From Proteromonas lacertae (Eukaryota > Sar > Bigyra > Opalinata > Proteromonadidae), in contig NGBS01000334.1 of the NCBI GenBank assembly GCA_002245135.1, forward strand, positions 1 to 64,000: a stretch of DNA of 64,000 nt. The letters are read 5' to 3'. This document shows, one piece after another, positions 1,544-38,700 of this stretch. The position numbers were made by a program, and so were the translations under genes. The notes beneath the pieces are model-generated. The model did no database searches and was not told the origin of the DNA. It worked only from the letters and a program-made list of their open reading frames with translations. The number at the start of each line of letters is the position of its first letter. Within the stretch, counting starts at the first letter, position 1.

Positions 1544-1742
1544 GAAAAAGTTGAAAATATAGTCGTTTCAAAACGACAAAAATAAAATAAAATTTAAATT
1601 TAAACGAAATTATTAGTCAACTATGAATACACTATTAACTTTATTAATATAGCAACTATTTTCATCTGAATTATTGCATTCTGCCTTTAGAGAAGGGAAT
1701 GGATGGATGATCGTTAAAGAATATTATAGATAAATTGAATAC

Positions 1743-6379: not shown

Positions 6380-7935
6380 TTAAGCTACAGTTGCTAATTG
6401 AGGTACTGTTTCTTCTTTTACAGCTATTGGAGCTGTTGGTAATTCAACTGTAACTGTTGCAGGTTGGCCTTCCTTCTTTAAAGGAGCAGCTTCTACTGGA
6501 ACTGAATTACTTACTTCAGTTTCTTTAACTGTGGTTGTACTACTTTCTGGTAAGAAGAAGAAACAATAAACAGCTGCAAAAGCACAAATTGCCATAAATA
6601 TGAAGAATACTACTTTTGAACCAACTGCTTTTTCTAAGATTGGGAATGTAAATGATATTACAATGTTGGCAAGGTTGTTAACTGTTACAGATACACTTAA
6701 ACCACTACTACGAATGGAAGATGGGAAAGCTTCGCTTGCTACAACCCAAAATAATGGACCTGGTCCCCATTCAAACATGAATAAGAATATGATAATTCCA
6801 ATAATTGATAAAGCTGTTACATTTGTTACAAAACTAATTGCCATCACCAAATTACCAATAGCTAATCCAAAATAAGTACCAATCATCAAAGTTCTCCTTT
6901 TGAATCTGTCAAGGAATGGCATAGCTAAAGCTGTACTAACAAAGTTCCATAAACCAACTACACAAGCTGTTGCAATATAAGGATCACTGATTCCAGCTTT
7001 ATCTAATATTGTATTACTGTAAAACATAATGGCATTAATTCCACATAATTGAGCACAAGCACCAAAGATTACAGCAAATGAATACCATTTTATTTTACCA
7101 GCTGTATCTACTTTTTCATCATCTTTCTTCACTGATACATTTGTTTGATTTACTCTCAGTTTTTTACCATTCTTTTTCTCTTTCTGTAAGTTTAACCATA
7201 CTTCGCTTTCTTTAGTAAAAATTAAGCAAACTAATAACAAGATACCAGCAATTGCACCAATAGCATATTGAATGGACCATTGCCATTTTTCAAATGGTTT
7301 ATATTCATCATAATCATCTTTACCAAAACCTAAATTGATGAAGTAACCAAAGGCCATGCTTAAGGTTACTACTAGCTGCATTAAACTTCCGATTCTTCCT
7401 CGATATTTTGCATCGACCGTCTCTGTGACATACATAGGACCTACACAAGTGCAAAGTCCTACAGCAAATCCAAGAATTATTCTCATTACAAACACTGCCC
7501 AATAGTTCTCGATGATTGCTAAAATTATTGGTATTATTGTCAAAATAACACCACCTAAACCTAAACTCTTACGACGACCAATCTTATCAGCAATCCATAT
7601 ACCTATTGTACTACCAGCAACCATACCGAATAATAATGCTGAAGTGTATAGCCCCTATCATTTTATAAATATATATAGTATATACATAGTACACAGATAA
7701 TAAATTTTCATCCTCTAAATTATCAAAGTAGGTGTACTTGATAATCTGAACTTTCAAACCACTGACAATGGCACTATTATATCCTAATGCTAGACCACAT
7801 AGTGAGTTAACGAGACCTATTTATATGAATATATATTCATTAATTAGATTGTGAGAATTATAAATTAAAGAAATAGATATAATAAACAGGGGTATTTGAT
7901 AGATGTATACCTGGAATTAATAAATCAGATAACAT
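6380..7935 (-). CDS. MFS sugar (hexose) transporter, paralog 1
   Basis: This is a 12-transmembrane major facilitator of the sugar-porter family, which moves hexoses across the plasma membrane. Signatures seen are GRRKSL after TM2, RIILGFAVGL, the PMYVTE motif before the TM6 loop with RGRIGSL, LDRFKRR after TM8 and PESS after TM12, plus QLCGINAIMFYSNTIL in TM7. Exon 1 (ATG at 7935) encodes nine codons. Two introns (about 7822-7911 and 7657-7687) precede the long last exon. The C-terminal tail is Thr/Val/Pro-rich and cytosolic. It is a close paralog of the gene at 14617-16199, with the same exon structure, and most divergence is in the middle loop and tail. A GAATCG-type motif lies 47-65 bp upstream of the start. 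Confidence 0.9.
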
Positions 7936-8305
7936 AATTAACCAAATATTCTAAATTGTTAAGAAATTTGGAAATGAAGAAACAATATCGATTCACAAAA
8001 TTGAAAACGTTTCAAATCTATCCAATAGATTTATTTTATAAAATACAAAATGATTAACAAATATATATGCTTAAATTATTACTGTGAGAAATATTTGCGT
8101 AGTAAAAGTGAGATAAATCAACAAAGTTGTGATTTATTAATTTTAAGTCAATCCTTTATAATTGTGTATATAGAAAAAGACTAAAAGAATAATATATACA
8201 AAACTATCAAAATAGCAGATTAATAGAATTTTTAAGAAATTAATAACATTTGTATAAGAAATAACTAACACCACTAAATTGGAAAGTTTGACTTTAATTT
8301 AAACG
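7936..8305. other. intergenic region, promoter side of transporter 1
   Basis: No coding potential was recognised in this AT-rich stretch. It contains the shared GAATCG motif (7982-8000) that also lies upstream of the other transporter and of the GH3 glucosidase. Confidence 0.5.
7982..8000 (-). promoter_or_regulatory. shared sugar-gene motif (TGAATCGATATTG)
   Basis: Read on the minus strand, TTTTGTGAATCGATATTGT lies about 50 bp upstream of the transporter start at 7935. Near-identical motifs (TTTTGAATCGGTATTTGT) precede the GH3 gene (11532-11549) and transporter 2 (14547-14564) at similar distances. Likely a common activator site; the role is inferred. Confidence 0.45.
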
Positions 8306-8728
8306 TTAATACTCATTTTTAATATTTTTTACGCTATTTTTCTTCTGTTGGTAAATCAGGTTTTTCACAGTAGTATTATCAGCTCTTTCTTTTTCTTTCT
8401 TCAATCCATCAGCTGATATATCATTAGCTGATTTTTGGATTGTCTTTTTCTTGGATGTTAACCTAACCAGTTTTTCATCATTATTACCTTCAAATACTGG
8501 AAAACGATTTGAACCACAATCATCATGACTATTTGATTTAGGATTTATTTTAGATTCATTTTCTATTACAAGCTTATTTGTATCAAGATTGGACCACGAA
8601 ACTAAATTCACCTTTGATGTCTTAAATATTCCACAGCAGCTAAAGGTAGTACCTAAATCTATTCCAATTCTTTCTTTGTTAGTCATAAAAAGAAGAAAAG
8701 AAAAATCAAAAAGAAAGTGAGCTTTCAT
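8306..8728 (-). pseudogene. truncated HSP70-like N-terminal fragment
   Basis: The start carries the diagnostic HSP70 phosphate-loop motif RIGIDLGTTFSCCGIF (residues about 19-34, after MTNKE). The following 105 residues are Lys/Ser/Asn-rich and do not resemble the remaining ATPase domain or a substrate-binding domain. A functional HSP70 is over 600 residues, so this 140-codon ORF cannot be a chaperone. It begins only 3 bp after the stop of the kinase-like relic on the same strand. It is most likely a duplicated, decaying gene end; a small expressed novel protein cannot be excluded. Confidence 0.5.
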
Positions 8729-8731
8729 TTA

Positions 8732-9030
8732 TTAAAACTGGATGGCAAGAGATTCAGTATAACCATTTTCATTCAGTTTACCAACTTTTATATCATCATT
8801 CATTTTACATCTCATTATATTATTCATTGTTTTAAATACATCATTTTCTTTCTTATTCAACATCTCATATAATATACAGCAAAACAATAAAACATTACAC
8901 TCTTATCATTATACTCTCTTCCACTCATTTCTTCTGGACTTCTGTAACATATTTCATCTATTACTATTTCTTCTCATCTTCTTATTTGATTCAAACATAA
9001 ATCAACCAATTTCACTTCATTATTTTCATA
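8732..9030 (-). pseudogene. protein-kinase-like relic
   Basis: On the minus strand, broken frames give the order EVKLVDLCL (DFG-region-like), then CYRSPEEMSGREYNDKSVMF (the APE / subdomain VIII-IX region, with YRSPE and the D-x-W/F position), then EMLNKKENDV and a stop at 8732. The pieces are separated by stops and a frame change near 8868, so the kinase is dead. Degraded material may continue to about 9200, where an HRD-like region would be expected but is not convincing. It is directly upstream of the HSP70 fragment, suggesting both belong to one duplicated, decaying block. Confidence 0.4.
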
Positions 9031-9446
9031 TATTACACTCACATAACATCATTAATATATTACTCAAATATCACTTCAACTCAAATATTTTCTAAATGAC
9101 ATTCGTTATATTATCTTCTACATATTATCATATTTTAAATTCTTTTAATTCTATTTCAACGTTTCAGAAAAGACGCTTATAAAAGCATATACTGCAATCA
9201 AACAAGATAATCCATTTCTAATACCAACTGAAACACAAGTTGTTGTTTGAATATATATATCCTCTAAAAAGATTAGAATTAAAAAGATTTATAATATATA
9301 TTACATGCATGAATATTTATGATTTTTAAAAAACAATATATTTAGCAAATAATGAATTTTTAAGAGTTTTAAAATCAAAAAAAGTTTGACGAGTTTGTCA
9401 TGTTGCTTGGGAAGGCTTGAGTATATTTTTTAAAAATTTTAATAAT

Positions 9447-11029
9447 ATGGCAGAAGTTAGCACAGAATACTATCATTATCCAAGAACATTTAGTCAATAT
9501 ATTAGATTGATAGTCATTATAGTATTATTGAAACAATCTAGTATCTAATAGTTTCTGAGTTTAATACTTTTAATATATGGTATAGAAATGCTAAATAAAT
9601 CTTCATCTATGGGTATAATTAGAATAATTCTTTTTTCATTAGGTTTTAATGTAATCGGTAAATGGTTAGGAATTTATTCCATAATATGTTTTTGTTGTGT
9701 TATAATATCTACCTTAATATATATTTATTTTACAGAATATATTGTAATACATTTTTATAACACAAAAGATTTATTATTGTGTATTCCTTCATTATTTATA
9801 TCAATAACATGTCTAATATTTATTTTAACATCTTATTATTCTATATCTTATGAAAAAATCGAAGAAACAATTAAAAAATGTTGTAAGAATGATACAAGTA
9901 TTAATTTTAGTCAATGTGATTTTATGGAGAAATATGGATGTGAGCCTTATTGTGGTAATATAACACATAGACAATTTGATGGTATTGTAATTAGATGGAT
10001 GTTAATATTTGTTTCTGTAATGTGTATATATGTAATTGCATCAGTATATATATTCATTATTATCATTGTTATTAATATTATTATAAATATCTATAAAAAA
10101 TATAGGGAGAATATTGTCATTACACTTCTAAATTGATTGAAAATGAAGGAAAAATTCCAGAAGAAATGATAAGAAGAAAGAAAATTGAGAAACTAGAGAG
10201 AGACATGAAAAATAATACCACTCCAGAGAAATATATTAAAAAGAGATTGAATGAATATTCGAATATAAATGAATGGAGTTGTTTTACTGAAAGAACAACT
10301 TCATTATCTGTTTATAATAAAAGATTAATTATAACAACAATAATATTAAGTGTATGATTATTGAAATATATGTATAGATAATATCCTGTATCTCAGTTGG
10401 ATTAAGTTTATATGAATTAATATTTACATATAAATTTGGTTTTAATCTAATTTCAAAAGATATATATATATGTAAACTAATCTTATCATCGTTTGTATTA
10501 ATCTATTCAGTCAACTATAAAAGAATATGTATAAAATGTAATGAAAATAGAAACAAAGGTTATGACAATTTAAAGAATCTGATTTTATTGATTTATTTAG
10601 CTGTAGGTATGTGTATATTTGGTTATAATTATATGAATAATTCCAAATATAATTATATGTCAAATTATTCTGAAACCTATGAAAAATGTTGTATAAATCA
10701 TGTTTCATCCAGCAAAGTATCTATCTATAATATAATATAATATAATTATATGTAATTAAAAATAGTGTGATATCTTACCAGAAAACAGTTGTAAAAGTTT
10801 TGGTTATTATGTAAATGTTCTTAGACAAAAGGATAAATTATTCTTAAATAATACAAATGATTTAAGTATTATTTTGGTTGGTATATATTGTGGAGTTATT
10901 ATATTGAAAATTGTATATATGACCAGAGAAGAAGCAAGAGAAGAAAAAATGGAATTTGAGAATTTCTTGGTAGAGCTTGGATATAGTAATATTTTAAATC
11001 AATACAATTTACTTTATCACCACCAGTAA
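9447..11029 (+). CDS. tandem tetraspanin-like membrane protein (8 TM)
   Basis: Five exons can be joined in phase, with introns at about 9540-9584, 10066-10103, 10330-10373 and 10711-10759. The product has two homologous halves, each with four hydrophobic segments and, between the third and fourth, an extracellular loop with a CC...C...C pattern (KKCCKND...QCDF...YGCEPYC and EKCCINH...CDILPENSC). That layout (small loop, CC-containing large loop, 4 TM) is typical of tetraspanins, which organise membrane microdomains. The usual glycine of the CCG motif is missing and overall similarity is weak, so it may be a different four-helix family. Two 4-TM units in one chain would be unusual. It sits between relics and the GH3 gene with no evident functional link. 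Confidence 0.45.
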
Positions 11030-11256
11030 TTTAATTGAAATGAATAAATCAATAGAAATAATCTTTATACTATTTATATTTTATTGTTTTGCAGTATAAT
11101 ATTATTATCTATCGAAAAAGAAATATGATTATTAATTACTATTTAAATCATGAAATAACACATACGATCAGTAGAAGGTATAGTTGTGTTCTTCCAAATT
11201 AACATAGGATGAATAGCTCATACTATGTAGATATCCAATAGAAAATTTATTTCAAA

Positions 11257-11279
11257 AAGCTTGACTATGTCAAACTTTC
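11257..11279. promoter_or_regulatory. imperfect palindrome with TTGAC/GTCAA half-sites
   Basis: AAAGCTTGAC, a 3-nt spacer and GTCAAACTTT pair at 9 of 10 positions. It resembles the palindromes at 6141 and 14277. A protein-binding site is possible; there is no direct evidence. Confidence 0.25.
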
Positions 11280-11531
11280 AATTTTCTTTTTTATTTAATT
11301 TTATTCGATCAAGCCAAATAAATGTGTTTATAATGGTTTTGCACTAATATATACGCTGCAAAACATTAATTGTAGGTTATAAAACATAGATTTTATTCAC
11401 ATATACTTCCTTTGATACTGTTACAGATTATTTTACTAATAACAACAATGTTACTTTAAAAAGCATAGATGATGGGAGGAAGAGAATGTCGATTCATTAT
11501 ATGAAACGAATATATTTTAGAAAACAAAATC

Positions 11532-11549
11532 TTTTGAATCGGTATTTGT
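11532..11549 (+). promoter_or_regulatory. shared sugar-gene motif (TTTTGAATCGGTATTTGT)
   Basis: An 18-bp motif about 65 bp upstream of the GH3 ATG, identical over 18 bases to the one upstream of transporter 2 at 14547-14564. In both promoters a TGTCGATTCATT half-site lies further upstream in inverted orientation. Confidence 0.5.
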
Positions 11550-11613
11550 ATTTTTTATATTTTTCATAGGCAAATTCAAGTAATTATTCAATAATTTCTT
11601 TATTTTCAAGTAC

Positions 11614-13996
11614 ATGAAGCATCAAGATCTGATTAACAAACTCACATTGGAAGAAAAAGTGAAGTTATTATCAGGAGAAGATCTATTTACAACTAAATCA
11701 ATTGAAAAAATCAACTTACCTTCTGTAACATTTGCTGATGGTCCATTTGGTATAAGAAGACTGGCACATAAAAACGCAGTTAATCCTCATGACAGTATTC
11801 CAGCCACTTGTTTCCCCAGTCCAGCATTATTAGCTTGTTCATGGGATCCAGAATTAGTAGAAGAAGTAGGTAAAGCAATTGGTGAAGAAGCTGTTTCAAG
11901 TAAAGTTGCAGTTCATTTAGCTCCTGGTACAAATATCAAAAGATCTCCCTTAAATGGTCGTAATTTCGAGTATATGAGCGAAGATCCTCTTTTAGCTGGT
12001 GAAATAACAGCTGGATATATAAAAGGAGTGCAATCAACAGGAGTTAGTAGTACATTAAAACACTTTGCTGTTAATAATCAAGAAACTCGTCGAATGATAG
12101 TAGATTCAATAGTAGATGAAAGAGCGTTACGTGAAATATATTTACGTCCATTTGAAATTGCAATAAAGAAATCTAATCCTAAAGCATTGATGTGTGCTTA
12201 TAATAAAGTAAATGGAGTCTATTGTTGTGAGAATGAGAAATTATTAAGTGATATATTGCGAAAAGAATGGGGATTTAAAGGAATAGTAATGTCTGATTGG
12301 GGTGCTACAAATGTAAGAAGTGAAGGTATAAAAGCTGGATTAGATTTAGAAATGCCAGGAAATAATGGATTAAGTGATCCTGAAGTAATACAAGCAGTGA
12401 AAGATAAAAAGTTGGATGAATCAATAATCAATCAAAGAGTGGATGATTTATTAGAATTTTTACTAAATGCAAGTAAAGTAATTTGTTCTGATGATAAAGC
12501 TGGAATAAAATTTGATATAACAAATCATAAGAATTTAGCAGTAAAAGCAGTTGAAGAATCTGCCATCTTATTAAAGAATGATGGAAATATCTTACCATTA
12601 AAGAAAGATGAAAAAGTATTAATAATAGGTGAAATGGCAGTAAAACCAAGATATCAAGGAGCTGGTAGTTCATTCGTAAATCCAACCGAACTTAAAACAT
12701 TTATTGAACAAATTAGTGAATGTGGTTATCCATTTGATTATAAACAAGGATATGAATTATCAAAGAGTGAAGCTAATGATAAAATGATAAAAGAATGTAT
12801 AGAAGTTGCTTCTCAATATTCGAAGATTGTAATTGTAGCTGGCTTGCCTAATGATAAAGAAAGTGAAGGATTTGATCGAAGTACTTTAGATTTACCAGAA
12901 TGTGAAACAAAATTGATGAATGAGATAAGTAAAGTGAATAAGAATATAATAGTTGTATTACATGCAGGAAGTGTAGTTACAATGCCATTTATTGATTGTG
13001 TTAAAAGTGTCTTACTAATGTATTTACCAGGTCAAATGGGTAATTTAGGATGTATGAATATTCTATATGGAGATGCAAATCCTTGTGGAAAATTAGCTGA
13101 GACATTCCCAAAAGAATTATGTGATACACCATGTAATAACTATTTTCCAGGTGAAGGAAGAAAAGCAATTTATAGAGAAAGTATTTATGTAGGATATAGA
13201 TATTATGATAGTGTCAAATTACCAGTATTATTCCCATTTGGCTATGGTTTATCTTATTCGAAGTTTAAATATAGTGATTTGAAAGTCTCCTCTGAGAATA
13301 TAACTGATAAAGATACCTTAGAAATTTCATTTAAAGTAGAAAATGAATCAGATATAAAAGGAAATGAAATAACTGAAGTTTATATTCATGATGAAAAATG
13401 CACAATGTTTAGACCAAATAAAGAATTAAAAGCCTTTAAAAAAGTATTAATTGAAGGTAGAGGAAGTATAATAGTGAAATTAACTCTTGATAAATCAGCA
13501 TTTGCCTATTATAATGTAGAAGAAAAAGACTGGATCGTGGAATCAGGAGAATTCACAATATTAGTTGGTTCAAACATTAATGATTTACCTTTAAGTCCAT
13601 AAAATAACAGTTAAATCATCCAAAGAAAGTGATAAAATGAAAGATTTATCTTCTGAATGTAAATGGTATTATCATCCCAGTAAAGATGTTATTCCACTTG
13701 AACAATTTGAGAAATTATTAGGTAAGAAAGTCGAGAAGGAAGTATTTATGAAAGGATGTTTCACTTCAGATAATACACCTGAAGAAGTATCTGAACATTC
13801 AGCAGCTGCTAAACCATTTATAGAATCTATTAAAACCAAGTTACTAGAAGTAATGAAGTGTAATGAAAAAGATGTAGCATTCATGATGATGTATGACAGT
13901 TTAATGAATTGTCCACTGAGGAATTTACCTCGTTCTTTTGATGGTGTGATAAGTGAAGCTAATGTTGATGAAATTTTAAAAATATGTAACAACTAA
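11614..13996 (+). pseudogene. GH3 beta-glucosidase, bacterial type, split by one frameshift
   Basis: This is a glycoside hydrolase family 3 enzyme that releases glucose from the non-reducing end of beta-glucosides. The N-terminal TIM barrel holds FADGPFGIRR, KHFAVNNQE, and VMSDWGA with the expected nucleophile Asp. The alpha/beta sandwich domain (about residues 310-540) carries LLKNDGNILPL and GFDRSTLDLP. A fibronectin-III-like domain ends near 13600. The in-frame stop there (13600-13602) is followed, in another frame, by a segment read from about 13595 through 13637-13996 that matches the C-terminal tail of long Firmicutes-type GH3 enzymes (FEKLLGK..., CPLRNLPRSF...). One 1-nt indel thus splits an enzyme of roughly 795 residues. 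The core is intact and could still act. There are no introns and no signal peptide, unlike neighbouring genes, which fits transfer from bacteria and an intracellular role on imported cellodextrins. Confidence 0.85.
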
Positions 13997-14276
13997 TGTA
14001 TATTTAAAACCCATAAATATTGATATTTCTATTAGACTTCTGACTATTTTGAATTGCTTATTTTTTGTTATCAAAATAAATTCTTTTATGAGCTATTTTA
14101 TTTGAATGTATCAATACTTAAAGGTTATTAGGTTAATAACAGAGGTAGTAAATGAAGATTAACAAAATTTTGAGTTTTATAATTATTAACACTTTTACTT
14201 TATAAACATATATTGCAATATTAAAGTTGGAATCTTATGAAACCTTTCACTGTTAATAGTTTTTTATTTTAAATAG

Positions 14277-14298
14277 AAGCTTGAATTGTATCAAGCTT
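14277..14298. promoter_or_regulatory. inverted repeat AAGCTTGA-N6-TCAAGCTT
   Basis: Perfect 8-bp arms with a 6-bp spacer lie in the intergenic region between the GH3 gene and transporter 2. Half-sites resemble those at 6141-6158 and 11257-11279. Confidence 0.3.
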
Positions 14299-14523
14299 TT
14301 GAATCAGTTACATCACTTATTTCAGTAAATAGAAATAAAAGTGTATTTATTGTGTTACTATATGATTTTATATATAATAATAAATATGTTTAAATACAAA
14401 TATTGGTATTTAAAACAAAATGATTCCTTTATCAAATCTTTCAATAATTTTTATCAGTATAATATTCTAAATGATGAAAACATGTAAAATGTATGTAAAA
14501 AAGTAATTTCTCAATGGATGTCA

Positions 14524-14564
14524 TGTCGATTCATTTTGAACCGACATTTTGAATCGGTATTTGT
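14524..14564 (+). promoter_or_regulatory. paired GAATCG motifs upstream of transporter 2
   Basis: TGTCGATTCATTTTG and TTTTGAATCGGTATTTGT form inverted CGATTC/GAATCG half-sites about 55-90 bp before the ATG at 14617. The same two elements, more widely spaced, precede the GH3 gene. Confidence 0.5.
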
Positions 14565-14616
14565 TTATTTTATTTTATTTCAAGATTTCTTGACATTTTC
14601 AAAAGTATAATCAAAA

Positions 14617-16199
14617 ATGTTAGAAGATTTAGTAATTCCAGGTATATATTAACTTCATTTATAAATTATATTTTTGTTTATATTAAATACAGTTTTAAGT
14701 CTAATATATTCACTTTAAGAATATTTATTTTATTATATAAATAGCTCTTGTCAACTCACTTTGTGGTTTAGCACTAGGATATAACAGTGCTGTTATCAGT
14801 GGTTTTAAAACTAGAGTAATTAAGTTCAACTACTTCGAGAATTTGGATGAAAACAGTGATGAATATACTGTGTACGATGTATATTTCAAAAATATAATTT
14901 AAATGATAGGGACTTTACACATCAGCTGCTTCTTTTGGTAGTATAGCTGGTAGTACATTAGGTATATGGTTAGCTGATAAATTTGGTCGTCGTAAGAGTT
15001 TGATATTAGGAGGGTTTATCTTGACAGCCATTCCAGTAATTTTAGCAATCATCGAGAACTATTGGGCAGCGTTTGTGATGAGAATAATTCTTGGATTTGC
15101 TATAGGTCTGTGTAGTTGTGTTGGTCCAACTTATGTAACAGAGACAGTAGATGCAAAATATCGAGGAAGAATTGGTAGTATGTATCAATTAATTGTAACA
15201 TTCAGTATGGCCCTTGGTTATTTCATTAATTTGGGTTTTGCCAAGAATGATTATGACACAAGTAAGCCTTTTGATAAATGGCAATGGTCAATTCAATATG
15301 CTATTGGTGCTTTTGTTGGATTATTGATATTGATTTGTTGTATGTTTGCAAAAGAAACACCAGTATGGTTAAATAAACAAAAGAATGGAAATTCTGAACA
15401 AAGTCAAACCAAAGTAACAGTAACAGAAACAATAGATACAGCTGGTAAAATAAAATGGTATTCATTTGCTGTAATCTTTGGTGCTTGTGCTCAATTATGT
15501 GGAATTAATGCCATTATGTTTTACAGTAATAAAATCTTAGAAAAAGCAGGTTTAACAAATCCTTATATTGCAACAGCTTGTGTAGTTGGTTTATGGAACT
15601 TTGTTAGTACAGCTTTAGCTATGCCATTCCTTGACAGATTCAAAAGAAGAACTTTGATGATTGGTACTTATTTTGGATTAGCTATTGGTAATTTGGTGAT
15701 GGCAATCAGTTATGTAGCTAATGTAACTGCTTTATCGATAGTTGGATTGGTTATTTTCTTATTCATGTTTGAATGGGGACCAGGTCCATTATTTTGGGTT
15801 ATTGCCAGTGAAGCTTTCCCATCTTCCATTCGTAGTAGTGGTTTAAGTGTATCTGTAACAGTTAACAACCTTGCCAACATTGTAATATCATTTACATTCC
15901 CAATCTTAGAAAAAGCAGTTGGTTCAAAAGTAGTATTCTTCATATTTATGGCAATTTGTGCTTTTGCAGCTGTTTATTGTTTCTTCTTCTTACCAGAAAG
16001 TAGTACAACTGCAATAAAAGAAACTGAAAAATCTAAAGCCACCACTACAACAATAAGTAGTAATGCAGTTCCAACAACAACCGAAGAGAATTATGTAAAG
16101 AAAGAAGGTCAACCATCTGTTACTACAGTTGAATTACCAGCAGCTCCAACAACTGCCACAAAAGAAAATGGTGAATCTAAATTACCAGTTGTTGCTTAA
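14617..16199 (+). CDS. MFS sugar (hexose) transporter, paralog 2
   Basis: Exon 1 (ATG at 14617) is nine codons plus a split codon. Introns at about 14642-14744 and 14879-14909 are in the same positions as in the paralog at 6380-7935. Sugar-porter signatures include FGRRKSL, RIILGFAIGL, GPTYVTE with RGRIGSM, QLCGINAIMF, LDRFKRRTLM and PESS. Twelve hydrophobic segments are visible, with a variable central loop shorter than in the paralog and a Thr/Ala-rich C-terminal tail. Predicted role is plasma-membrane hexose uptake, probably of glucose produced by the adjacent GH3 enzyme or by external digestion. Long runs of near identity with paralog 1 over TM7-12 suggest recent duplication or gene conversion. 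Confidence 0.9.
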
Positions 16200-25657: not shown

Positions 25658-28600
25658 ATGAGTAATTCAGTGCATCCTACTAGAGCATTTGTTATTATCG
25701 ATGTGCAAGTATTAAATATATCATATTATTTATAGAACGACTACTTTGCTAATGGAGTTTGTCCAATAGAAGGCGCTGAGGATATTCTGCCGGTCATTAA
25801 TAAATTAAGAAGAAAAGATTTTGATTTCACTATTTTAGTTCAATTATGGCATCCTATAAATCATTGTTCCTTTTCCTCAAATAATCCTGGCTATCCTCCC
25901 ATGAAAGTAAGTCATATACCAGATTTAGGTCCCCAAATGTTATGGCCAGATTACTGTGTTGCTGGAACTTATGGAGCAGAATTTCATCAAGAATTACTTA
26001 TTAGACATTCTGATATAATAATCCAATGTGGAAATAATCCAAATATCGATAATTATTCAGCATTTCGAGAAGTACGAAAAGATAATCAAAGTTGTATGAT
26101 TAACGAAATAATCACCCAAAACAATATAAAAGAAATATATTTCTGCGGATTAGCTGTAGAGTATGGTATACAATTCAATATACTCGATTGTAACATCTTT
26201 GCAACAGGTTGTCAAATATTTTGTATTACTGATGCTTGTAAAGGTTTTAATGAAGAAAAAATGAAAGAAATTCTAACCAAATTAGAATACGAAAAGGTAC
26301 ATACAGTCAATTCAAATGGACCAGAAATGCAATTAATAGCTGATATAGAAACACGTGTGTTAATAACGAATAATATAATAAATATTGTCTCATGTAAAGG
26401 AACAACAAATTATGAATTATCCACTCATCCATTGGAAGTAGGTGATAAATTGTGGTTGGATATGAAGAATAAATGTACAAAAATGAATAGTATGGTTGAA
26501 GGATGTTATTATATAAAAGGAAATAACAGTGATCATACAAATACTTCAGCTGATTTTTTAATTCTTTCACCAAAATCAAAGTGTTTATTATTTATTCTTT
26601 GGCCTGCAAGTAATAAGAAAACTACATGGTTATCGAAGAATTTTGAATTTCAAAACCAATACATTAATACTGATAGTTCCAATATAGTGTTAGAAATATG
26701 GAAAATGAAAGAATCAATTGGAGCTGGTGAAAGAATGTATTTAGGTGGAGCTGAAGGTAATCTAGTTGATAAACAACATTATAATTATATTGTTTGTATA
26801 AAATCCCAACGTATATTTTATATATATATATATATATAAATTTATTTTTATTTTTATTAATATTATATATATATATATATGTATAGCACCTGATGTAAAT
26901 GATGTAGTACATGCAATATACTATGAAACAGATGAAACTCTGAGGACAATAATGAGTAGTTGTGGTGAATTGGATAATCACTTACCTCCATTGAGTAGAA
27001 CACCATTTCATGCAGCTGTAGTAGCCAATAGAATCTTAGCAATTGATATATTATTAGAATGTGGTATAGATATCAATGCTCCTGATATAAATGGAGATAC
27101 TCCTTTAATATTAGCTTGTAGACTGAATAGAATAGAGATAATAGAAAAAATGATTATTGAAAAGACGTTAAGAGTAAATGCAGTTAGTAAATTAGATAAA
27201 GGAAGTGCTTTATTAATAGCTTGTCAAATGGGAAATACGAAAGCTGTTCAATTAATTGCAGATCATGGTGCTTTAGTAAGTGCTACAAATAGATATAATA
27301 CAACTTCATTAACATTTGCATTTTATCACCACGAAGATATAGCTTATAGAATAATTAACATTTTATTTGCACATACGAATAATAATGAAGAAAAATCATT
27401 TCTTTTACAAGAACAAGATAAATTCGGTTGGAATGCAATCACAGTAGCTGCAAGAGTTGGATTTTTACATAAAATCAATTTTTCAAAATTTCCAGGTTTG
27501 ATAGACAAAGTGTCTGTAAATTGTTATACCAAAAGAGGTTTTAGTTTATTACATTATACATCATGGAATTGTAATTTAGATGATATCAATATGTTAATAG
27601 AAAATAGTCATTATTGGAAGGAAGAATTAGAATTAAATACAATTAGTGAAGAAAATGGATATAGTGAATTAGATTTAACTATTTTAAAAGATAATAATGA
27701 ATGTAGTAGAACTTTAGTTTTAGGTGGATCACATGCTACAATTTGTACAGGACAATCCATTCATCGTTTATTATACTATATGATTACAATGGGAGAAAAT
27801 AATGTAGTAGAAGGCTTGTTGAGATTTGATGATAATAAGTTTAATATTGACGAATCATTGATAAAATATACGAAAAGAACGAAATATATTGGCAGTTGTA
27901 CATTTTCATTTGCTAATTTTACTAATCCCATAACACAGCATATGTACAGATGTGTTACTTGTGATACTTTGATATGTAATATTTGTAGATTGAAATGTCA
28001 TAATGGACATGAGATATTATATAAAGGATTAGTAAATGATACTTATTGTTTTTGTCAAAAATCAACTTGTCAAGCTTTGCTTGGTGTAGATAAAAGAGAA
28101 ACGGAAGGTTATAAATACGTTCCAAATCCAATTGATACTTCATCTGTACAAGATAATCCAAACTTGGATAAATTAATTCAATGTTTAGCCATTAATAGTC
28201 ATGAAGTATGGAGTCAAGAACATATTGAAGATGGTTGGAGATATGGTCAACAAAGAGATAATAAAAGACATATTCATCCTTTACTTTTACCATGGAATTT
28301 ACTAACAGATGGTGATAAAAAGTGGGATTTAGAATCTGCTAAACATAATATAAGATTAATTGAATATTTAGGATATGAAATTATATGTGAAAGTGAAGAT
28401 TATTCAAATGCATTTTTAGATGAATGCAGTATGAATTATGAAGGTGGTAAATACAATCCAAGTCCATTAGACACTTCAGAAGTTCAATTGACTGATCAAA
28501 TGTTAGTATTAGTTCAATTATTAGCTAAAAACAGTCATGAAGAATGGGCAAAAAGTAAAATAGACAATGGTTGGAAATATGCCCCAGAAGGTAAAGATAG

Positions 28601-31600
28601 TGAGAAATTATCACCACTTTTAGTTCCATATGAATTATTATCAGATGAAGAGAAATTATCTTCACAATTAAATGGAATTGAAACTATTAAAGGTATTTGT
28701 ATGTTAGGATATAATATTGTTTATAATGGAGATGAAGAAGCTCAACTGACAATGAATTCATTATTCAAAGGTGATGAGTATGCGTCATTAAAAGAGAATA
28801 TGGCAAGAATGGAGGAGGTAAGACATGATTTCTTTAATTTATATTTATTAAGAGCTTGTAGAAATGATCAAGTTGATATTATACCGAATTTGGTTCAAAG
28901 TGAACAGCAAGTAATTGCGAATATAAATATTCAAGATTCTTATGGACAAACTCCGTTATATGTTGCTGTAAAGAGAGGCAATTATTCTACAGTTGAATTA
29001 TTGTTGAAATTACATGCGAATATATTCATAAATGATAAAAATGGAATGACTCCTTTGATGTTAGCTGCATTCTTAGGAAATTATAAAATATGTGAATTGT
29101 TACTTCAAAATAATGCGAAAATATTTGCTAGAGATATAAATGGATTTACTGCAATGTATATATATATATAATTTATATTTTATTTATAATAGTCATCATG
29201 CTTGTGCAAATGGTCATTCAAAAGTATTAGAACTGTTATTATCAGAAAAGTATGTAGATATTAACTACTTATGTACAATCAAAGAAGAAGATAAATGGAA
29301 AGGAAAATTCAAAAAGAAACAGAATATTTCACCTTCCAATTCATCAAAAGTTTTACCCTTAGAGAATGATGAAGATACTTCCAAATTCAACAAAACCATT
29401 AAAAATCAAGAAACAATTGCTGAACTTCCAGTAGATTCTACTCCAGCAACTATTACACCAACATCTACTATAAATAAAGATAAAAATAAAGATAATAAGA
29501 ATAATGAACCATGCTCTACTTCATTTATGCAATCTACATCTCAATACCAATCAACTTTTTCATCTAATCAACCGATTAGTAATAATAAAGTGTCTATAAA
29601 AATAAATAAATCTTTAGATGGTTCTAGACCAAATACTCCTTCAAAATTGAATATTCTAAAGAAATCTAATTTTCCACAATTGCTAATACAAAACCAAACT
29701 AATAATCAAAGCAATCAAAGTAATAACAACAATAATAATCAAATATCTCAATCTTTGACACGTATTCCAGAATTATCATTTCCAGAAACTGATAATCCAG
29801 CAATTGATTCAACAGCAACTCTTAAAAAGAGCCACAAGAGAAGTTTATTAAACAAATTATCAGCAATTGAAGGATTCAAATCAGCAGGAACAGGAGGAGA
29901 TAGTTTGAAAACAACTCGAACAGCAAGATTAAAGCGAAGATCATCAATCATGAATTCACCTTCTTCTCCACAAACCAATTCTCCAGCAAGAATATTGAAA
30001 TCACCAACTGCCGAACTAATGACAAGTAGGAAACTAGCTAATACAAGTGATAATTTATTCTTATCATCCAATCCAGTGATTAATACTCCATTATGTTTAT
30101 ATAACCCACTGAATTTAGCAGTAAAAGCTTCTAGAAGAGAAGTTATAAAAGTATTACTAGATCATGAAGCAAATCCAAATATCAGAGATGGAACAGGCAT
30201 TTCTCCATATAATAGAGCTTTAATGAAAAGAGCAGCAGCTGCAATATATGAAAGAGATAAAATAGAGAATGAAGAAAGACAATTCAGAGAGATGTTGGGA
30301 GATACAAGCAAAGCAACTGCTATAAAGAGATTCTTAAAGAAATATTGTTGTTGTTGTTTTAAACGATGTGTGAATGAATCGAATGAACTTGAAAAGGAAG
30401 AGAAATCGATGAAAGAAAGTTCAAAATCGATTTTACTAGATGAAGAAGCTTCATTAAAAGCACCAAATCCTCAACATAAACAAGAGAGTAAAATGAAAAT
30501 AAGAGATAAGTGGATTTCTACATTATCAAAACCAATTAAAGAAAGAAAAGATGATAGACAGATTGCTAATATGCAATTAGCTTCTAAAGTCGTTGATGAT
30601 TTAGCAACAAGTGAAAATGTACAACAAAGAAGATCTAGATTTGGTTTATGGCAATTCTTTAAAGAAGGTATTATATTTTTAGGACTTTACATTTTGTTAT
30701 TATCATTTACATCAGCATTCTTTGATTATGGAACACAAAATGTATAGTCATTTATTTATTTATTTATTTATTTATTAGGAATTATCATTTGTTCAAATAA
30801 CTGATCAAGATTTAAAAGACAGTGGTTTTACTGATATATTTTCATTTGATGACTATAATAATTGGGTTATTACATATCTTTTTAATCCATCTGGAAATGG
30901 ATTAATACAACCGCCATTATATCCAAGTATTTAATATTATTTATATTTATAATGGAATAGATACAGCAGCTGTTTATCATGAGAATAATTACGTATTTGG
31001 AGCAGCAAGACTATCAACTATTGAATATAAGAAAGTAGTTTGTAAATCAACAGAATATTTAGATTTAAGTAATTTACACTATGCTTGTTACAAAGATAAT
31101 GATGATGAAAGTGCTCCAGTAGATATTCCATTGACTGATCTATCATTAGCAAGAACAAAATATGAATCATTATTGAGTAATGGATTAATCACTCATGACA
31201 CAAAATCAATCTCATTTTATATAAATATGTTCAATCCATCTACTTCAAGGTTATGTATATTAGAAATGACAATTACCAAACTACCAACAGGTGAGTATGA
31301 GAGTAAACATGAAGCAAAGACAACTAGATTTGGTGATGATCGATTTTCTCCATCAAGATCATTTGAAATTGTTATTGGATTAGAAATTGCTGTTGAATTA
31401 TACTTCAAAGTGAAATATATCATCCAGAGTAAAGGAATTGGTGAACAATTCAGTGATAATTGGCTTATATATGAATGGTTATTGTTAATTGGTCTATTTA
31501 TTTTATTATTATTAGATTTGATTGTGTATGCTCAAGTATCAACTGATTCAATTCAATTTACTGCTGATACATACACTGATTTTTCACATTCAATGGATTT

Positions 31601-32554
31601 GATTAAAGGAGAATTAGATTTAACTTCAATTATTACATTTTTATTTGGTTTAAGATTTATTAAATATCTTCGATTAATCCCAGTATGGGGACCTATGGTG
31701 TTGGCTGTGATTCAATCAATTAGTGCAAGAGATGTGCTTTTATATATTTTTGTGTTCTTTTTAATGATGATTATTTTATGCTTTTCTTATGATGTTTCAT
31801 TTGGAGTGGAAGTGGAAGTATTTTCTCAATTAATTACTTCATTCTTTGAACTTTTCTGCTCTTCATTTAATCAAGAATATAGCAGAACTTATGATTTAGA
31901 TAAAAGACCATTATTTACTATATATTTTGTTATTTATGTGTTATTATCATTAATTCTAGTGAACTTATTTGTAGGTATTATTTCAGATGTATATTTATGA
32001 TTTTATTTTATTTTTTTATTTAAAATAGATTTATCCCAAAGTTAGAGAAGAATCTGAAATCACATGGACAATTCTTATGGCAGAGTATATGACAGACAAT
32101 GTCGTTTCAGATCAAAAATTAGAAGGAGGAAATACAATTAGAAGACCATCAATCATATTTGAATTATTAGAGGAAGATCATTGGGGCAATTTGATGGAAG
32201 GAAGAGATGGAATAATCTATTGGACGCCTAATGGACTTTATAGTCCTGAAAAGGAGAAGAAAAAGAGAAAGAAGGTTGAGAATAAAGACAATAAAGATGA
32301 TAATAATGGACCAGAACTGAATGAGACTGCTGATATGATTTTGAAGGAAGTGAATAGATTGAAAGCTAATTTTACTATTCAACATGAAGCTATTGATGGA
32401 TTAAATGATAAAGTATATTACTCTCTGTGTATATTTCAAATAGATTGCGAAAATCTTCGAGTTGCTCCAAGAAGTCAATGAAAATAGTAAGAAATCAAAT
32501 GTGATAGGAGGAAATCAAACATTATTATTGAAGAGAAAGAAAACTAGAGGTTAA
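25658..32554 (+). CDS. nicotinamidase-like / ankyrin / UBR-box / RyR / polycystin-type channel fusion
   Basis: One gene with eight exons joined in phase, about 2,200 residues. Order: (1) residues 1-215, an isochorismatase/nicotinamidase fold (AFVIIDVQNDYF, LWHPINHCSF, MLWPDYC, YSAFRE, CGLAVEYG). (2) A beta-rich segment to about 390. (3) Ankyrin repeats (27,000-27,350, more to 27,700). (4) A UBR-box zinc finger (27,890-28,080; YRCVTCDTLICNICRLKCHNGHE). (5) Two RyR domains (NSHEVWSQEHIEDGWRYG; NSHEEWAKSKIDNGWKYA). (6) Further ankyrin repeats to 29,260 and 30,100-30,240, separated by a Ser/Asn-rich linker. (7) A polycystin/TRPP-type channel: TM1 near 30,660-30,720, a lumenal domain with YVFGAARLSTIEYKKVVC, then five TM segments ending LSLILVNLFVGIISDVY. 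(8) A helical tail. In the enzyme domain the catalytic Asp15 stays, but the Lys position is Cys115, the nucleophile Cys is Gly161 and one metal Asp is Leu54. Likely a non-catalytic ligand sensor gating a cation channel (inference). Confidence 0.8.
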
Positions 32555-32717: not shown

Positions 32718-35700
32718 CTATATTGGACGATCTGCATTAGGTCCTCTCATTCTATGACGTATTATATCAAATACAGAGTTTCCATCCTTATTTTTCTTTG
32801 ATTTATCTTCTTTCTTTAATTTCTTCATGACTAAAGTAGGAGCAAGTCTAAGAGCTTCTGCAGAATAATGTATTTTAAATGAATGGAACACCCCTGAAAA
32901 TGTTGATAAATTCCTAGACATTGACAATTGGTTCAAATAAGCATTCCAAGAATCTAAACTAAACTTTGAAGTATCAACAGATATTACAGTTTTCAAATCT
33001 CCTATTCTCAAATAATTAATAAACGCCAAATTACCTTCTAACTCAGTATTATCCTTACAAACAGTATGAGCAAAATTACCACAATCACTACACTGCCATT
33101 CAACATTTCTCATACCATTTACTATCTTATTACAAATACAACAGGGAGTTTCAACATTACCAGGATCTTTCTTCAATACAAATGTATGTATATGAGAAGA
33201 TTGTTCAGGTTTTTCATTCTCTATTTCTTTATCATTATCAACAGGGAAAAAATAATCATGTAACAATCTAAATAGATTGGATGTAACGGTAATAAAAATT
33301 CGATTTTCTGAACAAGGAAATACATTTATTTCTATATGGAAATAGATGCTTATTGGCCATTGTTCTACACTTACTGGAGTGGCTGTTTCTGTTCTGATTG
33401 CTAACATTGGTGATTTTAATGCAATTTTATCAACTATTTTTGGAGCTACAATTTTCTTAAAATTTGTATTTTCTTTCACTTTCATTGATAATTCAAATGT
33501 ACTACAGTTGATTGTTGTTAATTGAGTAATATCATTATAAGTAAATCTTGACATTTCCAAATTATTGAATGTGAAAATACCAAATGTTTCACCAGTTGTT
33601 GTATTTTTCATATTCCATTTCCCTCCATTAATAATTATATGCATAATATAAGTGACATATTTCTCATCTCTATATTCTTTCATAATTGAATCTATATTCT
33701 CTAATAAGTGTTGTATGGTTTGTTTTCCTAATCTACTAGCTCCAGGTTTATGTGGTAAAGGTAATGAGGTATTATTGGTGAAAGAAAATAAAATCACATT
33801 CTGTACAGCATCTAATGTTTCTGAGAATTGTAAAGCATTTGCACTGAAATCAATGGAAGGACAATTGGCTGTGAATTTGTTAATTTCATCTGAATCAATG
33901 ATAGGATCCATATGATTGACAGATTGTGGTGGTTTTGGATTAAATATCATTGTAACATCAAATACTGAATGATTTACTAATTGAGCTGGTGTTCCTCTAT
34001 CAGATTCTTTCACCCAAACTATTTTGTTTGTATAGTCATGAGGAAATATGAATAACTGAACATCATCTAAATGTATGGATGTTTTACTGATCTCTTGTTG
34101 TTGTTCACCTAAATGAGAAGATCTTACCATCGTTACTTGATCTCCAGTAATAACAACACTTGTATAATTACTATCCATCGACATACAGTTTAACTGCATT
34201 TGAGTTAATATACAAACCATTGAAATATGTGAAGAAGGTAATTCTAACTTCTTATGTTTCACTCCAATCATTCTAAAGTATGATTCATCTATATCCATCC
34301 ATGGTTCATAATCATCATCATCTTCATGATGGTTATAAGTTGAAGATGACAATATATCTGCTTGATTGGCTAAACTACTTAATAAATGCTGTTGAGTTTG
34401 GAATTTACTGTTTATTAATATTGAATTATCTGTTATTGGATTGGTTGGTGGGAATAATATACTCATTATATCATCTTTTACTTTAAATACAAATCTCTTT
34501 ATTGGAACAGTCCATAAGAATTTCAATTTATCAACTACAACATAAGGTGGATTACTATCAGCCAAAGCTTTTTCTTCTAATTTTACATATCGTATATAAT
34601 CTTGGTACTTTGTTTCTTCTTTTCCCATTAATAATATCAACTTCTCTATTTTACAAATGAATGTATCGTTATTTCTTATAGCTTCAAATGGATGTCTTTT
34701 TATCTTTGGTTTTATCATTCTATTCCATTTGTCAATTCTTATTTCATCAATTTCTAAACATAATGATTGTATTTGATACACACTATCACATCCAAATATT
34801 GGATAAGTTAAATCAGGTGTTAATATTTTCTTATGTGCTAATAATCTCAATTGAAATTTCTTTCCTTCTGGTACACATGCTTCTGTACTATCATTTACTA
34901 GCCACCAAACTAATAATGGATTTTCTGAACCTAATATCACTTCAACATCTGTAGTTAATGTTCCCAATGATATTGAAGTTCCTGGAGTGTTGATAATCTT
35001 CATAATAAATGATTTAATCCACACAACATAATCTATCCATTGTAAATACAACTCTAAACTATGTGTTCTTGATAATGAATCTGGTTTTCTTGAATATATA
35101 TCAATTGACCATTTGATGGCTAAAGATCTGAAATTGTTGAATTTATCTGTACTTTCTGGTAGTTTTAAGAATATATGATGATTCTCTGAATCTCCATAAC
35201 AAGTCCAACCAATTGTTAAAGTAATAGCAACATGTGTTGCTGATAAAAATATCTTTGATTCTCTTTCTAATCCATTAATTGCTGCAATAACACCATCAAA
35301 TTCAATTAAAAAGACTTTTGGTTCTGCACATTCTAATGACATATTTGTTAAGATTATTTTCAAATAATTATCGTCATATGGATTAGCATTATACCAACAG
35401 AATATTAAATTGTTATGTACATTTACTCCCATCTTTCCATGTAGCATATATCTCATTTTATCCCACCAAGGAAGTTTAGGTGACTTTGTATCTAATGAAT
35501 TTGGTGTAAATCTTCCAAATACATCACTTAATACAGCTAATGTTGGAGCTAAACAATTACCATAACTTACATCTAACGTAAAACTATTCAAGTCAAAATC
35601 AAAATACAATTTTGTTGATTCTAATGATCTTAATATTGGAGTTGGGATTCTATTATAATAAATATCACTGGACAAAGCAGATTCACATCTCACAATAGCT

Positions 35701-38700
35701 TCTGGAACAATAGCAACATCACCAATTGAAAAAAATCCAGATATTTCAACATTAGATAATTCTATTAATGGCATTGGAAAATCTCTTAAAAATACAGAGA
35801 ATTGAAAACCAGTTAAAGTTTCAATTGTTATACCATAAACATCACCATAACCTCCATTGTATAAAGGTTTATTTTCTTCAGCACAACTATCTAACTGAGT
35901 AATTCTATCTATTAAATAAACTCGACTATGTTCTTCAGGATTCCAATATGCTAATAAGTATAATGTATCTCCTACAATTGAACATAATCTGTTTGTATTA
36001 TTGATATTTGTAACTGTTGCTTCTTTATCATTGATTATAAATTCAAAATGACCACATGTCATTTCTAAGATATATGATTTTGAATAATCAATTTTATTGA
36101 TCTTTTCCATGTTGTTATGTTCTTCTAAATCATTACCAGCATATTTGAATGTATAAGCTATAAAAAATATAATTAATATATATACGATGGCCTTTCATTA
36201 AAGTTTTAAAACATTTATATTGTTCCAAACAATCTCCAATTATTTCACCAAAATTAGAATCATGTTCATATAAGAAGAACAAATCTCTAGTTGAAACTAT
36301 CACATGTGGAAGTAATAAAAGATTAGTCGTATGAATTGGTATATAATTCACTGGAATTATATATTGAATACTTCCAAATGGTAAAGCAAAGAACGGATAC
36401 TGTTGTCCTGAGATAAAATAAGAAAAGTTTTGCATTTCCAAGTAGAAAACATGATGATTATCTATTATATTGTATTGAATTACTCCATATTCATTCGTAA
36501 AGAAGAAATAAGTATGATCGAAATTTAAAAATAACTGTAATGTGTCTATAGTTAATTGGAAATGATGAAATGGAATAAAACTTAATACTGTTACTCTTGG
36601 CGGTTTGTCATTCTTTGAACTCTCATCATTAACTTTATCTTTATTTGTCTCTTTTGGAACAACTCTTTTAATCATATCAACTAAACTCAAAGCATAATGG
36701 ATTAAAGTGTAAATAATACCAAAATTGATATGTAATTCAGGCTTTTGAATTGCTATAGACAGTTGATCTGTTTTTGTCACATGAATTGTATTAATATAAA
36801 GTATTGGAGGTGAAACATCAATTGCACTATTTACAGTAAGTGTTTGAATATCAACAGATAATGATGAAGAATGTGAGACAATACATTCAATTGATTCAAT
36901 TGAAATAAACATATTATCATTACTAGTATATAAACCATTTAATTGAAGATTTAATGATTGTAAATTCACTGATATACTCAAAGTTAATTTCTTTTTCTTT
37001 GGTTTTGGTGGAGTTGGAGGTGGGATTAAACCATTTGGAGGAGGAATTAATGGATTTTGCATTGAAGGAACTGAAGTTGAATATGATCTATAAGAATTAA
37101 CTTGAGGATGTTGTTGATTAGGTTGCGATTCTTTATTCTTCTTTGGAAAAAGAGATTTTAAATTATTAACAAAATACAATACATCTGAAGTAATATTCAA
37201 TAAATGATCTAATTCAGCTTGATTGAAATAAGAATAAACGGTTCTAAATCCAAATTCAACATCCATTGAATCAGCTATATTCATTATTTGTTTATAACTC
37301 TTTTTATGATGAATATAATTGACATTCAACATAATATCAGGTAAATAAAGTAATCTTCCCATTATATATTTATCTTCATATCCTTCCAACATGCTTGCAG
37401 TTAAAACATCTAAAATTATATATTCACAAGCAACATAACAATTCACATTCAATGTATTTAAACTACTAAAATATAAATTATTTTCGCTATCTTTTGGATC
37501 AGTGGTTTTATCCTCTTCTTTATCACTATCTTCTCCACTACTATTATTGCTATTAATAACAATTACATCACTTTTACTATCTTTTGTTTTATCATCTCCA
37601 TAATAACTAACTGGAGGAATAGATAATGAAACATTTTGAACTTTTAATTTACAATCTGCTACAGTTGAAGTTAAGTCTTTAGCAATATCAATAATCAATG
37701 AACCAAGAGAAAATTGAATAATAAACTTAGTGGAATAAATAATACCAAATATATCTAAATCATTCTTTTGAACAACTTCAACTGATGGTAAAAAAGGAGG
37801 TAATGGAGGTGGAGGAGGTGGAGGTAATGGTGGAAGAGGTAAATTATTGGACGAATTATTCATAAATGGATTTCTTGTTGAATTCATTGGATATTGATTT
37901 GTTACAGCTACAGATCTACGTCTTTCAATCTTCTTTTTCTTATTAAATCTTTTGGCTTGAGCTTGAACCATTTCTATAATATGGCAAACTGTTTCACCAA
38001 ATCTTTTCGTAAAAATACAGTGTATATAATCTAAAGACGCTGTACAAATTGAATTGGTAATAAAATCTTGTAAAAATGTCATTAACAATGGAGGAGGATT
38101 TTCTTGAAACTTCTTTGTTGAAACGAATGAGAATAAATACGAAAACATAAACCCTCGAATTGTGATATTTTGATTTACAACAAATTCATTCAATTGAAAT
38201 TCAATTTTCATCTTTCCATCATCACTTCCATATTCATTATTATAATCTAAATTAGTATATAAAGAACCACGAAATGATATAGGAAATGTAATATTTGGAG
38301 TGACAAAATTGACAGTCAAATTACCAAATGTGATACTAACATCGGGAATTTGTCTAAATATCTTTGAAAAAGTTTCATAAAACTGTGGAGGAGGTGCAAT
38401 TAAATCTTCTTTCTTTGAAATTGATAATTTCTTTAGTTTTTTCATCTTTTTCTATTGTATTAATATCTTCTATTGTATCTTCAACTATTTTCATCAGTTT
38501 CATCAGTTTCATTATATGCATTAGATACAGAAGATAAATCTTTCTTTTGAAACACATAAATTAACCTTAATAGTTGTGAAGAAAATGAAAATTGAAAATC
38601 TTCACCAAAATCTAAAGTAACATATTCAGCAAACCTTCTCAACATATTATACGATGATCCAAGAATGAAATTAATAGATGGAATATATAAATCAGCTTTA

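Follow-up and report, generated by a model that had tools for sequence, protein, structure and literature searches.

Among channels of the TRP superfamily, TRPM2 carries NUDT9-H, an enzyme-derived domain that is inactive in humans and that senses an NAD metabolite (PMC6461439, PMC11479946, PMC4974056). The PKDRR family, placed in the same superfamily by its authors, is defined by a PKD domain and two R domains toward the C-terminus, and some of its members are stated to carry additional domains (PMC7399828). Here, we describe a gene at positions 25658-32554 (plus strand) of a 64,000-nucleotide stretch of Proteromonas lacertae DNA, hereafter the window, which lies on contig C22 of a 50.2-Mb genome of 1181 contigs. 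Its predicted product combines, in this order, a nicotinamidase fold, ankyrin repeats, a UBR-type zinc finger, a tandem RyR domain (R12), further ankyrin repeats and a polycystin-type channel. We read it, with a probability of about 0.5, as a polycystin-type channel that is regulated by nucleotides, contains a pseudoenzyme as regulatory domain and is akin to the PKDRR channels of oomycetes. A published description of this fusion was not found, as judged by titles and abstract openings, with subscription journals thinly covered.

A single gene encodes the fusion

The gene model consists of eight exons (25658-25708, 25736-26810, 26887-29155, 29193-30741, 30779-30926, 30961-31988, 32029-32412 and 32444-32554, all on the plus strand), which read openly and in phase for 2204 residues to an encoded stop, in a window with a G+C content of 24-29% (4-kb steps). 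All seven introns (27, 76, 37, 37, 34, 40 and 31 nucleotides) are of the form GTAT..TAG, and an identical set of seven was returned when the protein was mapped onto the DNA by splice-aware alignment. Pfam matched Isochorismatase (E 9.2e-11, residues 10-201), RyR (E 5.5e-51, two stretches), PKD_channel (E 2.5e-11), Ion_trans (E 1.8e-6) and ankyrin repeats (six Ank_2 stretches in total). The exons, coordinates, phase and domain order claimed in an earlier annotation, made from the letters without database searches (the sequence-only reading), are thus borne out by the reading-frame check, by Pfam and by the splice-aware alignment.

A composite of this kind could also arise on paper, by joining a nicotinamidase-like gene to a neighboring channel gene. 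Intron 2 (26811-26886, plus strand, 76 nucleotides), where the sequence-only reading had suspected a boundary, is TA-rich and the longest of the seven, as such an artefact would have it. Against this, two homologs cross the boundary at 26,810-26,890 inside one exon. In the paralog L028 (contig C1043), a single exon takes in part of the nicotinamidase fold, the whole region equivalent to residues 216-373 and at least some of the ankyrins, and one tblastn piece covers query residues 18-598; in P0003, a relative from a public collection, the fold and the ankyrins share one exon, in an open reading frame (ORF) of 535 residues. The intron at the fold/ankyrin junction is absent in both. Moreover, the domain order is common to four genome copies and to P0008, an NCBI protein modelled and named independently. 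We therefore reject the possibility of two separate genes and regard a gene-model artefact as barely credible; by these comparisons, the joining of the nicotinamidase fold and the channel in one gene is confirmed as a real fusion.

Loss of the nicotinamidase active site

The nicotinamidase fold (25679-26299, plus strand, approximately residues 8-205, split by intron 1) yielded 7 distinct PDB matches at E <=0.01, 6 of which are named nicotinamidase or pyrazinamidase/nicotinamidase, the seventh being labelled 'alpha/beta-hydrolase-like' by its depositors. PncA enzymes bind their metal through Asp, His and His (Asp54, His56 and His89 in the Acinetobacter enzyme, in which the ligand is tethered to the metal), and activity was undetectable in versions of the Mycobacterium tuberculosis enzyme with single mutations at the Lys, the Cys or the metal Asp (PMC3025910).

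For the comparison of active-site residues, the four fused copies of this genome were aligned with P0008, with the free nicotinamidase of the same genome (C188, exons joined by hand) and with 80 bacterial relatives, the best of at least 537 loci (the search patterns touch positions 15 and 90, with other residues allowed). The complete set of D15, D54, H56, H90, K115 and C161 was found in all 80 bacterial relatives examined, and C188 likewise retains all six catalytic and metal residues. This in-genome control (L034, about 7000-6010, minus strand) has a long insertion between its Lys and Cys segments. The window copy retains D15 and H56, and carries L54 for the metal Asp, Y90 for the third metal His, C115 for the Lys and G161 for the Cys. 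Read across the six positions, the window copy and L028 are D/L/H/Y/C/G, L030 is N/L/H/F/C/G, L029 is D/masked/masked/F/C/G and P0008 is N/D/H/V/S/A. The Lys and Cys are accordingly retained in none of the five fused copies: the genome's own copies have Cys and Gly there (4/4) and P0008 has Ser and Ala, and G161 is also seen in the relatives P0001, P0002 and P0003. At the position of the metal Asp, P0008 retains Asp and the three readable own copies have Leu; the third metal His is replaced by Tyr in the window copy and L028, by Phe in L029 and L030, and by Val in P0008; and the catalytic Asp has become Asn in L030 and P0008.

Based on these residues, we conclude that the nicotinamidase domain is catalytically dead. 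The sequence-only reading had already named the replacements L54, C115 and G161 beside a retained D15 and H56, which the alignment with the 80 bacterial relatives upholds. It had further counted His77 as a metal ligand; alignment to the PncA enzymes rules this out, as the third ligand aligns with Tyr90, so that one of the three metal ligands is left. Homologs that keep both Lys and Cys, which it had considered a sign that the window copy is simply an error, did not occur among the fused copies wherever the positions were readable. A structure model of exon 2 was poor (mean pLDDT 50.9 from 6 sequences, first strand missing).

Some isochorismatases function without the Cys, and the domain might still be an enzyme of other chemistry, with, for example, the invariant Cys115 as a relocated nucleophile. 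C115 is indeed invariant in 4/4 own copies, and Asp15 is kept in 3/4. We nonetheless consider changed catalysis very unlikely, given that Asp15 is Asn in L030 and P0008, that position 115 is Ser in P0008 and His in P0007 (the latter by eye, at a cut end), that the Lys is missing in all fused copies readable there, and that the PDB matches are of the nicotinamidase type.

The tree of this domain has 48 rows, with half (40) of the 80 bacterial loci among them. All five fused domains fall into one group, with a support of 88/97, below the starred level, and a recovery of 83% in 200 bootstrap trees; this grouping is tentative, since very long branches lead to P0008 and C188. An origin from the host's own nicotinamidase is not supported, C188 being intact and placed elsewhere in the tree.

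The dead domain is conserved and rebuilt

Across five distant pairs of the genome's own copies, the dead domain is 58-66% (0.58-0.66) identical, compared with 47-51% for S2-S6, 39-49% for RyR, 31-40% for region 216-373 and 27-35% for the loop between S1 and S2. L029 and L030 form a close pair, in which the dead domain has an identity of 0.88 and a dN/dS (a crude NG86 estimate, undefined in some pairs) of 0.11, next to 0.13 for S2-S6, 0.15 for the second ankyrin block, 0.30 for RyR and 0.49 for region 216-373. Recent decay of one copy was rejected on these grounds, as the losses are common to the own copies and the domain is under constraint.

The conservation is higher around the former active site: in the three clean copies, 56/78 positions of the active-site segments (chosen by hand) are invariant, against 49/128 elsewhere in the domain (Fisher p 3.6e-6). 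Adding P0004 and P0005 to the 80 loci gives 82 bacterial rows, in which 49 positions reach at least 95% conservation; 28 of these are altered in at least one own copy. Conversely, the own copies agree at 27 positions on a residue that occurs in <5% of the 82 bacterial rows, and 12 of these 27 lie in active-site segments. Considering the conserved active-site segments, the clade-specific residue set and the low dN/dS together, we conclude from the alignments that the dead domain is fixed and rebuilt in its own clade, as opposed to decaying. That the domain has lost catalysis and is nevertheless among the most conserved parts of the protein suggests a role in controlling the channel, not in chemistry.

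The main rival to a regulatory pocket is a structural role, in which the dead fold is kept for assembly or protein docking and binds no small molecule, with gating left to R12, the ankyrins or lipids. Folds of the isochorismatase/nicotinamidase type often self-associate, and the N-terminal position beside the ankyrins, the high identity across the whole fold, the loss of Lys, Cys and most metal ligands and the different replacements in P0008 would all suit a scaffold. The stronger invariance of the active-site segments in the three clean copies and the specific new residue set fixed within them (12/27) argue against it, and we hold a pure scaffold to be possible, with a clear minority of the probability.

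In the sequence-only reading, the dead fold was instead taken to gate the channel by binding nicotinamide or a related ligand. The nicotinamidase-type names of 6/7 PDB matches, the retained H56, H60 and W87 and the handling of ADP-ribose signals by the R12 family (PMC13232231) speak for this. Binding in the manner of a nicotinamidase finds no support in the window copy, from which two of the three metal ligands, the Lys and the Cys are gone: the Acinetobacter enzyme holds its ligand through the metal, so with Y90 and L54 metal-dependent nicotinamide binding is improbable, and single mutations at the metal Asp, Lys or Cys left the M. tuberculosis enzyme without measurable activity (PMC3025910). 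P0008, in turn, keeps the metal-site Asp and His and has lost the third ligand, the Lys and the Cys, and no single shared ligand is therefore evident. Overall, we consider nicotinamide gating quite unlikely.

Putative nucleotide-binding positions in the tandem RyR domain

The R12 region consists of RyR repeat 1 (28116-28382, plus strand), with H814, W817, R832, H839 and D856, and repeat 2 (28452-28718, plus strand), with H926 and W929. Residues 6-206 of the 209-residue query align to the R12 of RyR2 (E 1.1e-29 for the stretch, 7e-53 for the whole chain). The R12 of ryanodine receptors binds AMP-PCP and ADP when dantrolene or azumolene is present, with the adenine on Trp880 (881 in RyR1) and with Trp994 (995) as second key Trp and Arg895 (896), while nucleotides alone gave no detectable binding by calorimetry (PMC12627627). 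Phage proteins with RyR domains bind or cleave 2'/3' cyclic ADP-ribose, and RyDEP uses H75, W78, H100 and D117 (PMC13232231, preprint).

In the window protein, W817, W929 and R832 correspond to RyR1 W881, W995 and R896 (numbering transferred via the RyR2 alignment). The spacing of H814, W817, H839 and D856 (0/+3/+25/+42) equals that of the four RyDEP residues in 3/4 own copies, a match by residue spacing alone, made without the RyDEP sequence. We infer that repeat 1 retains the positions used for adenine nucleotides or cyclic ADP-ribose signals by RyR3 and phage RyDEP. The idea of a nucleotide-sensing RyR region, put forward in the sequence-only reading, is thus strengthened: by alignment and spacing, this is a likely nucleotide-binding module, and it is better supported as a nucleotide sensor than the dead fold.

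The polycystin-type channel

Hydropathy fits six transmembrane helices with approximate limits, namely S1 (30661-30723, about residues 1622-1642), a large loop of about 200 residues in the position of a polycystin/TOP-like domain (30730-31388, residues 1645-1840, split by introns 4 and 5), and S2-S6 with the pore (31389-31988, residues 1841-2040, also placed by Pfam and by the PDB match), followed by a C-terminal tail that is presumed cytosolic (32029-32554, residues 2041-2204), all on the plus strand. The channel profile has PKD2L1 as top PDB match (E 1.3e-11), then TRPC3 (E 6.7e-7), which, with the PKD_channel match in Pfam, agrees with the polycystin-type assignment of the sequence-only reading. 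Polycystin_dom was weakly matched in 1/5 members of the channel alignment (E 0.012), in which the window protein contributes 2/5 rows. The MIR, RIH and RIH-associated domains of the ryanodine/IP3 receptor superfamily (PMC7399828) gave no match in the Pfam scan of the window protein at E <=1.

A model for regulation of the channel

We propose that the protein is a polycystin-type cation channel, assumed to be a tetramer, whose N-terminal half of about 1600 residues, presumably cytosolic, would form a sensor tower. On binding an adenine nucleotide (ATP/ADP or an ADP-ribose), R12 would close, and the ankyrins would relay this closure to the pore. Like the inactive NUDT9-H of human TRPM2, the dead nicotinamidase domain would act as a non-catalytic regulator, either a sensor or an allosteric dock, and its pocket would be a rebuilt one. 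Ligand binding by this domain is something that we infer, and nicotinamide held as in the ancestral enzyme would be an improbable ligand. In its most likely form, the model takes the sensing half, R12, from homology with measured binding, and the pseudo-nicotinamidase half from conservation alone.

Several observations weigh against this model. Of the four RyDEP-type positions, the last two are not retained in L028, which has Asp and Tyr there, and P0006-P0008 read His, Trp, His and Asn, so the copies cannot all bind alike. The position of the RyR phosphate contact Lys884/Arg885 is His821 in the window copy, and the Arg phosphate contact of repeat 2 is seemingly lost (by eye). The conservation of the dead domain is not unique, as the UBR box (65-73% identity) and the second ankyrin block (58-63%) are on par with it; dS of the distant pairs is near saturation, making their dN/dS ratios rough; and folding or assembly could explain the conservation equally well. 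P0008 shares 2/27 clade-specific positions and differs at 25/27, which argues against one common ligand, and its channel matches Ion_trans at E 1e-7 and PKD_channel at just E 0.69.

Enzymes that cleave NAD release nicotinamide and an ADP-ribose, linear or cyclic. As the tower pairs a nicotinamidase-derived domain with an R12 of a family that binds cyclic ADP-ribose, the channel might be a coincidence detector for NAD+ breakdown, its cation pore opening on both products of an NADase or on a joint NAD-derived signal. We consider this unlikely; if true, it would turn an NADase alarm directly into a calcium signal. The gene places the R12 nucleotide-binding module, the function of which in ryanodine receptors is the subject of ongoing work, in a smaller channel from a different family, in which its effect on gating is testable.

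Paralogs and relatives of the fusion

RyR doublets were found at six loci of the genome (at least 12 matches, a lower bound). Four of these loci, on C22, C1043, C377 and C396, are full-length genes of one domain order with 2061-2204 modelled residues, the order in the paralogs being based on alignment to the window protein from residue 6 or 9 to at least residue 2200. In a family-level search of the genome, C1043 gave an Isochorismatase match and no PKD_channel match, and the reverse held for both C377 and C396. Residues 52-373 as genome query returned four loci, which are the four channel genes; the wider Isochorismatase family additionally includes C85 and C188. The N-terminal part of L029 (C377) has a frame break at the first metal ligands, for which assembly error and real lesion are indistinguishable. 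On C1088 (L033, about 1-4716) and C227 (L031, about 666-4171), a polycystin-type channel ORF is followed by RyR-RyR in neighboring ORFs, the order of PKDRR, a family described as oomycete-only (PMC7399828).

Outside this genome, P0001 is a 93% relative that has the fold alone, its ORF ending near the junction, and P0002 and P0003 are more distant ORFs in which the fold is found with ankyrins or more. P0006 has RyR, ankyrins and a channel and no Isochorismatase match at E <=1 in the Pfam scan, and P0007, cut at its N-terminus, combines ankyrins or more with a fold that matches Isochorismatase at 24.4 bits, under the cut-off. P0008, 25% identical to the window protein, carries isochorismatase, ankyrins, a UBR-like finger, RyR-RyR, ankyrins and a channel in matching order, so that homologs with the same domain order, which the sequence-only reading had suggested looking for, were found in three further genome copies and in P0008. 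By its domain content, the NCBI name of P0008, 'Ryanodine receptor 3', is a misnomer. A protein search with the full-length alignment was dominated by ankyrin proteins and animal ryanodine receptors and missed P0006-P0008, and we therefore draw no inference from it on the rarity of the fusion.

Remaining domains of the protein

Between the nicotinamidase fold and the first ankyrins lies a domain of 158 residues without an assigned family (26330-26803, plus strand, approximately residues 216-373), which was missing from the sequence-only reading. It occurs in the four paralogs and in P0001-P0003, and is gapped out in P0008. The window copy of this region had no Pfam match at E <=1 and no PDB sequence match at E <=10, and an NCBIfam search with four copies returned no family; P0003 gave a single weak Pfam match to DUF5017 (E 0.0067, under the cut-off). 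As speculative candidates for its fold, a jelly roll and a trefoil were considered.

The first ankyrin block (27003-27680, approximately residues 415-640, limits approximate) was placed by Pfam and alignment and precedes the UBR-type zinc finger (27873-28091, approximately residues 705-777). In the window copy of this finger, B-box (E 0.00095) outscores zf-UBR (E 0.0099), and in single-sequence Pfam scans B-box was found in 4/6 and zf-UBR in 3/6 proteins, all under the cut-offs. Ten Cys/His columns are invariant across the six aligned proteins, and the six-sequence profile matches UBR4 structures at E 1.3e-9. The UBR box of the sequence-only reading is thus retained, as a zinc-binding Cys/His pattern whose profile points to UBR4 and whose single sequences score weakly, in part better as B-box. 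The well-conserved second ankyrin block (28830-29265, approximately residues 1024-1156) spans intron 3 and is followed by a low-complexity, fast-evolving linker (29305-30087, approximately residues 1170-1430), with amino acid identities of 0.11-0.32 among the copies. These four features are all on the plus strand.

Neighboring genes

The tail-to-tail neighbor (32718-36194, minus strand) matches Hobbit/FMP27, with a C1 (diacylglycerol-type) match under the cut-off. At 6380-16199, a family 3 glycoside hydrolase lies between two sugar transporters encoded on opposite strands, possibly a sugar-use cluster. At 58956-60806, a WD40 protein matched several propeller families, with EML (microtubule-associated) among those above the cut-off.

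Comparison with known systems

The best sequence match of the N-terminal domain is PncA of Acinetobacter (PDB 2wt9, residues 8-189, E 1.4e-34), a free enzyme with intact Asp-Lys-Cys triad and metal site, whereas the window copy has lost 4/6 key residues. With the R12 of ryanodine receptors and with RyDEP, the protein shares the tandem RyR domain and the positions of the adenine-stacking Trp and the ligand His; it differs from ryanodine receptors in that R12 stands inside a polycystin-type channel, between ankyrin blocks and without other RyR/ITPR domains. P0008 differs from the window protein by the absence of region 216-373 and by its active-site replacements.

TRPM2, which the sequence-only reading had invoked, holds as a working analogy and is the nearest functional analogue, being likewise a TRP-superfamily channel that bears an inactive enzyme-derived domain. 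It belongs to another channel subfamily, its Nudix fold is at the C-terminus, and its ligand is established. The gene described here would be a further case of a TRP-superfamily channel with a disabled metabolic enzyme, here a nicotinamidase in a polycystin-type channel.

The closest described relative that we found is the oomycete PKDRR, which likewise unites a polycystin-type channel and two RyR domains within one protein. Isochorismatase and UBR domains are unmentioned in the PKDRR main text (PMC7399828), and the RyR pair of PKDRR follows its channel, whereas in the window gene the RyR pair (28116-28718) precedes it (31389-31988). An arrangement that sets the RyR pair ahead of the pore thus exists alongside the pair-after-pore order of the oomycetes.

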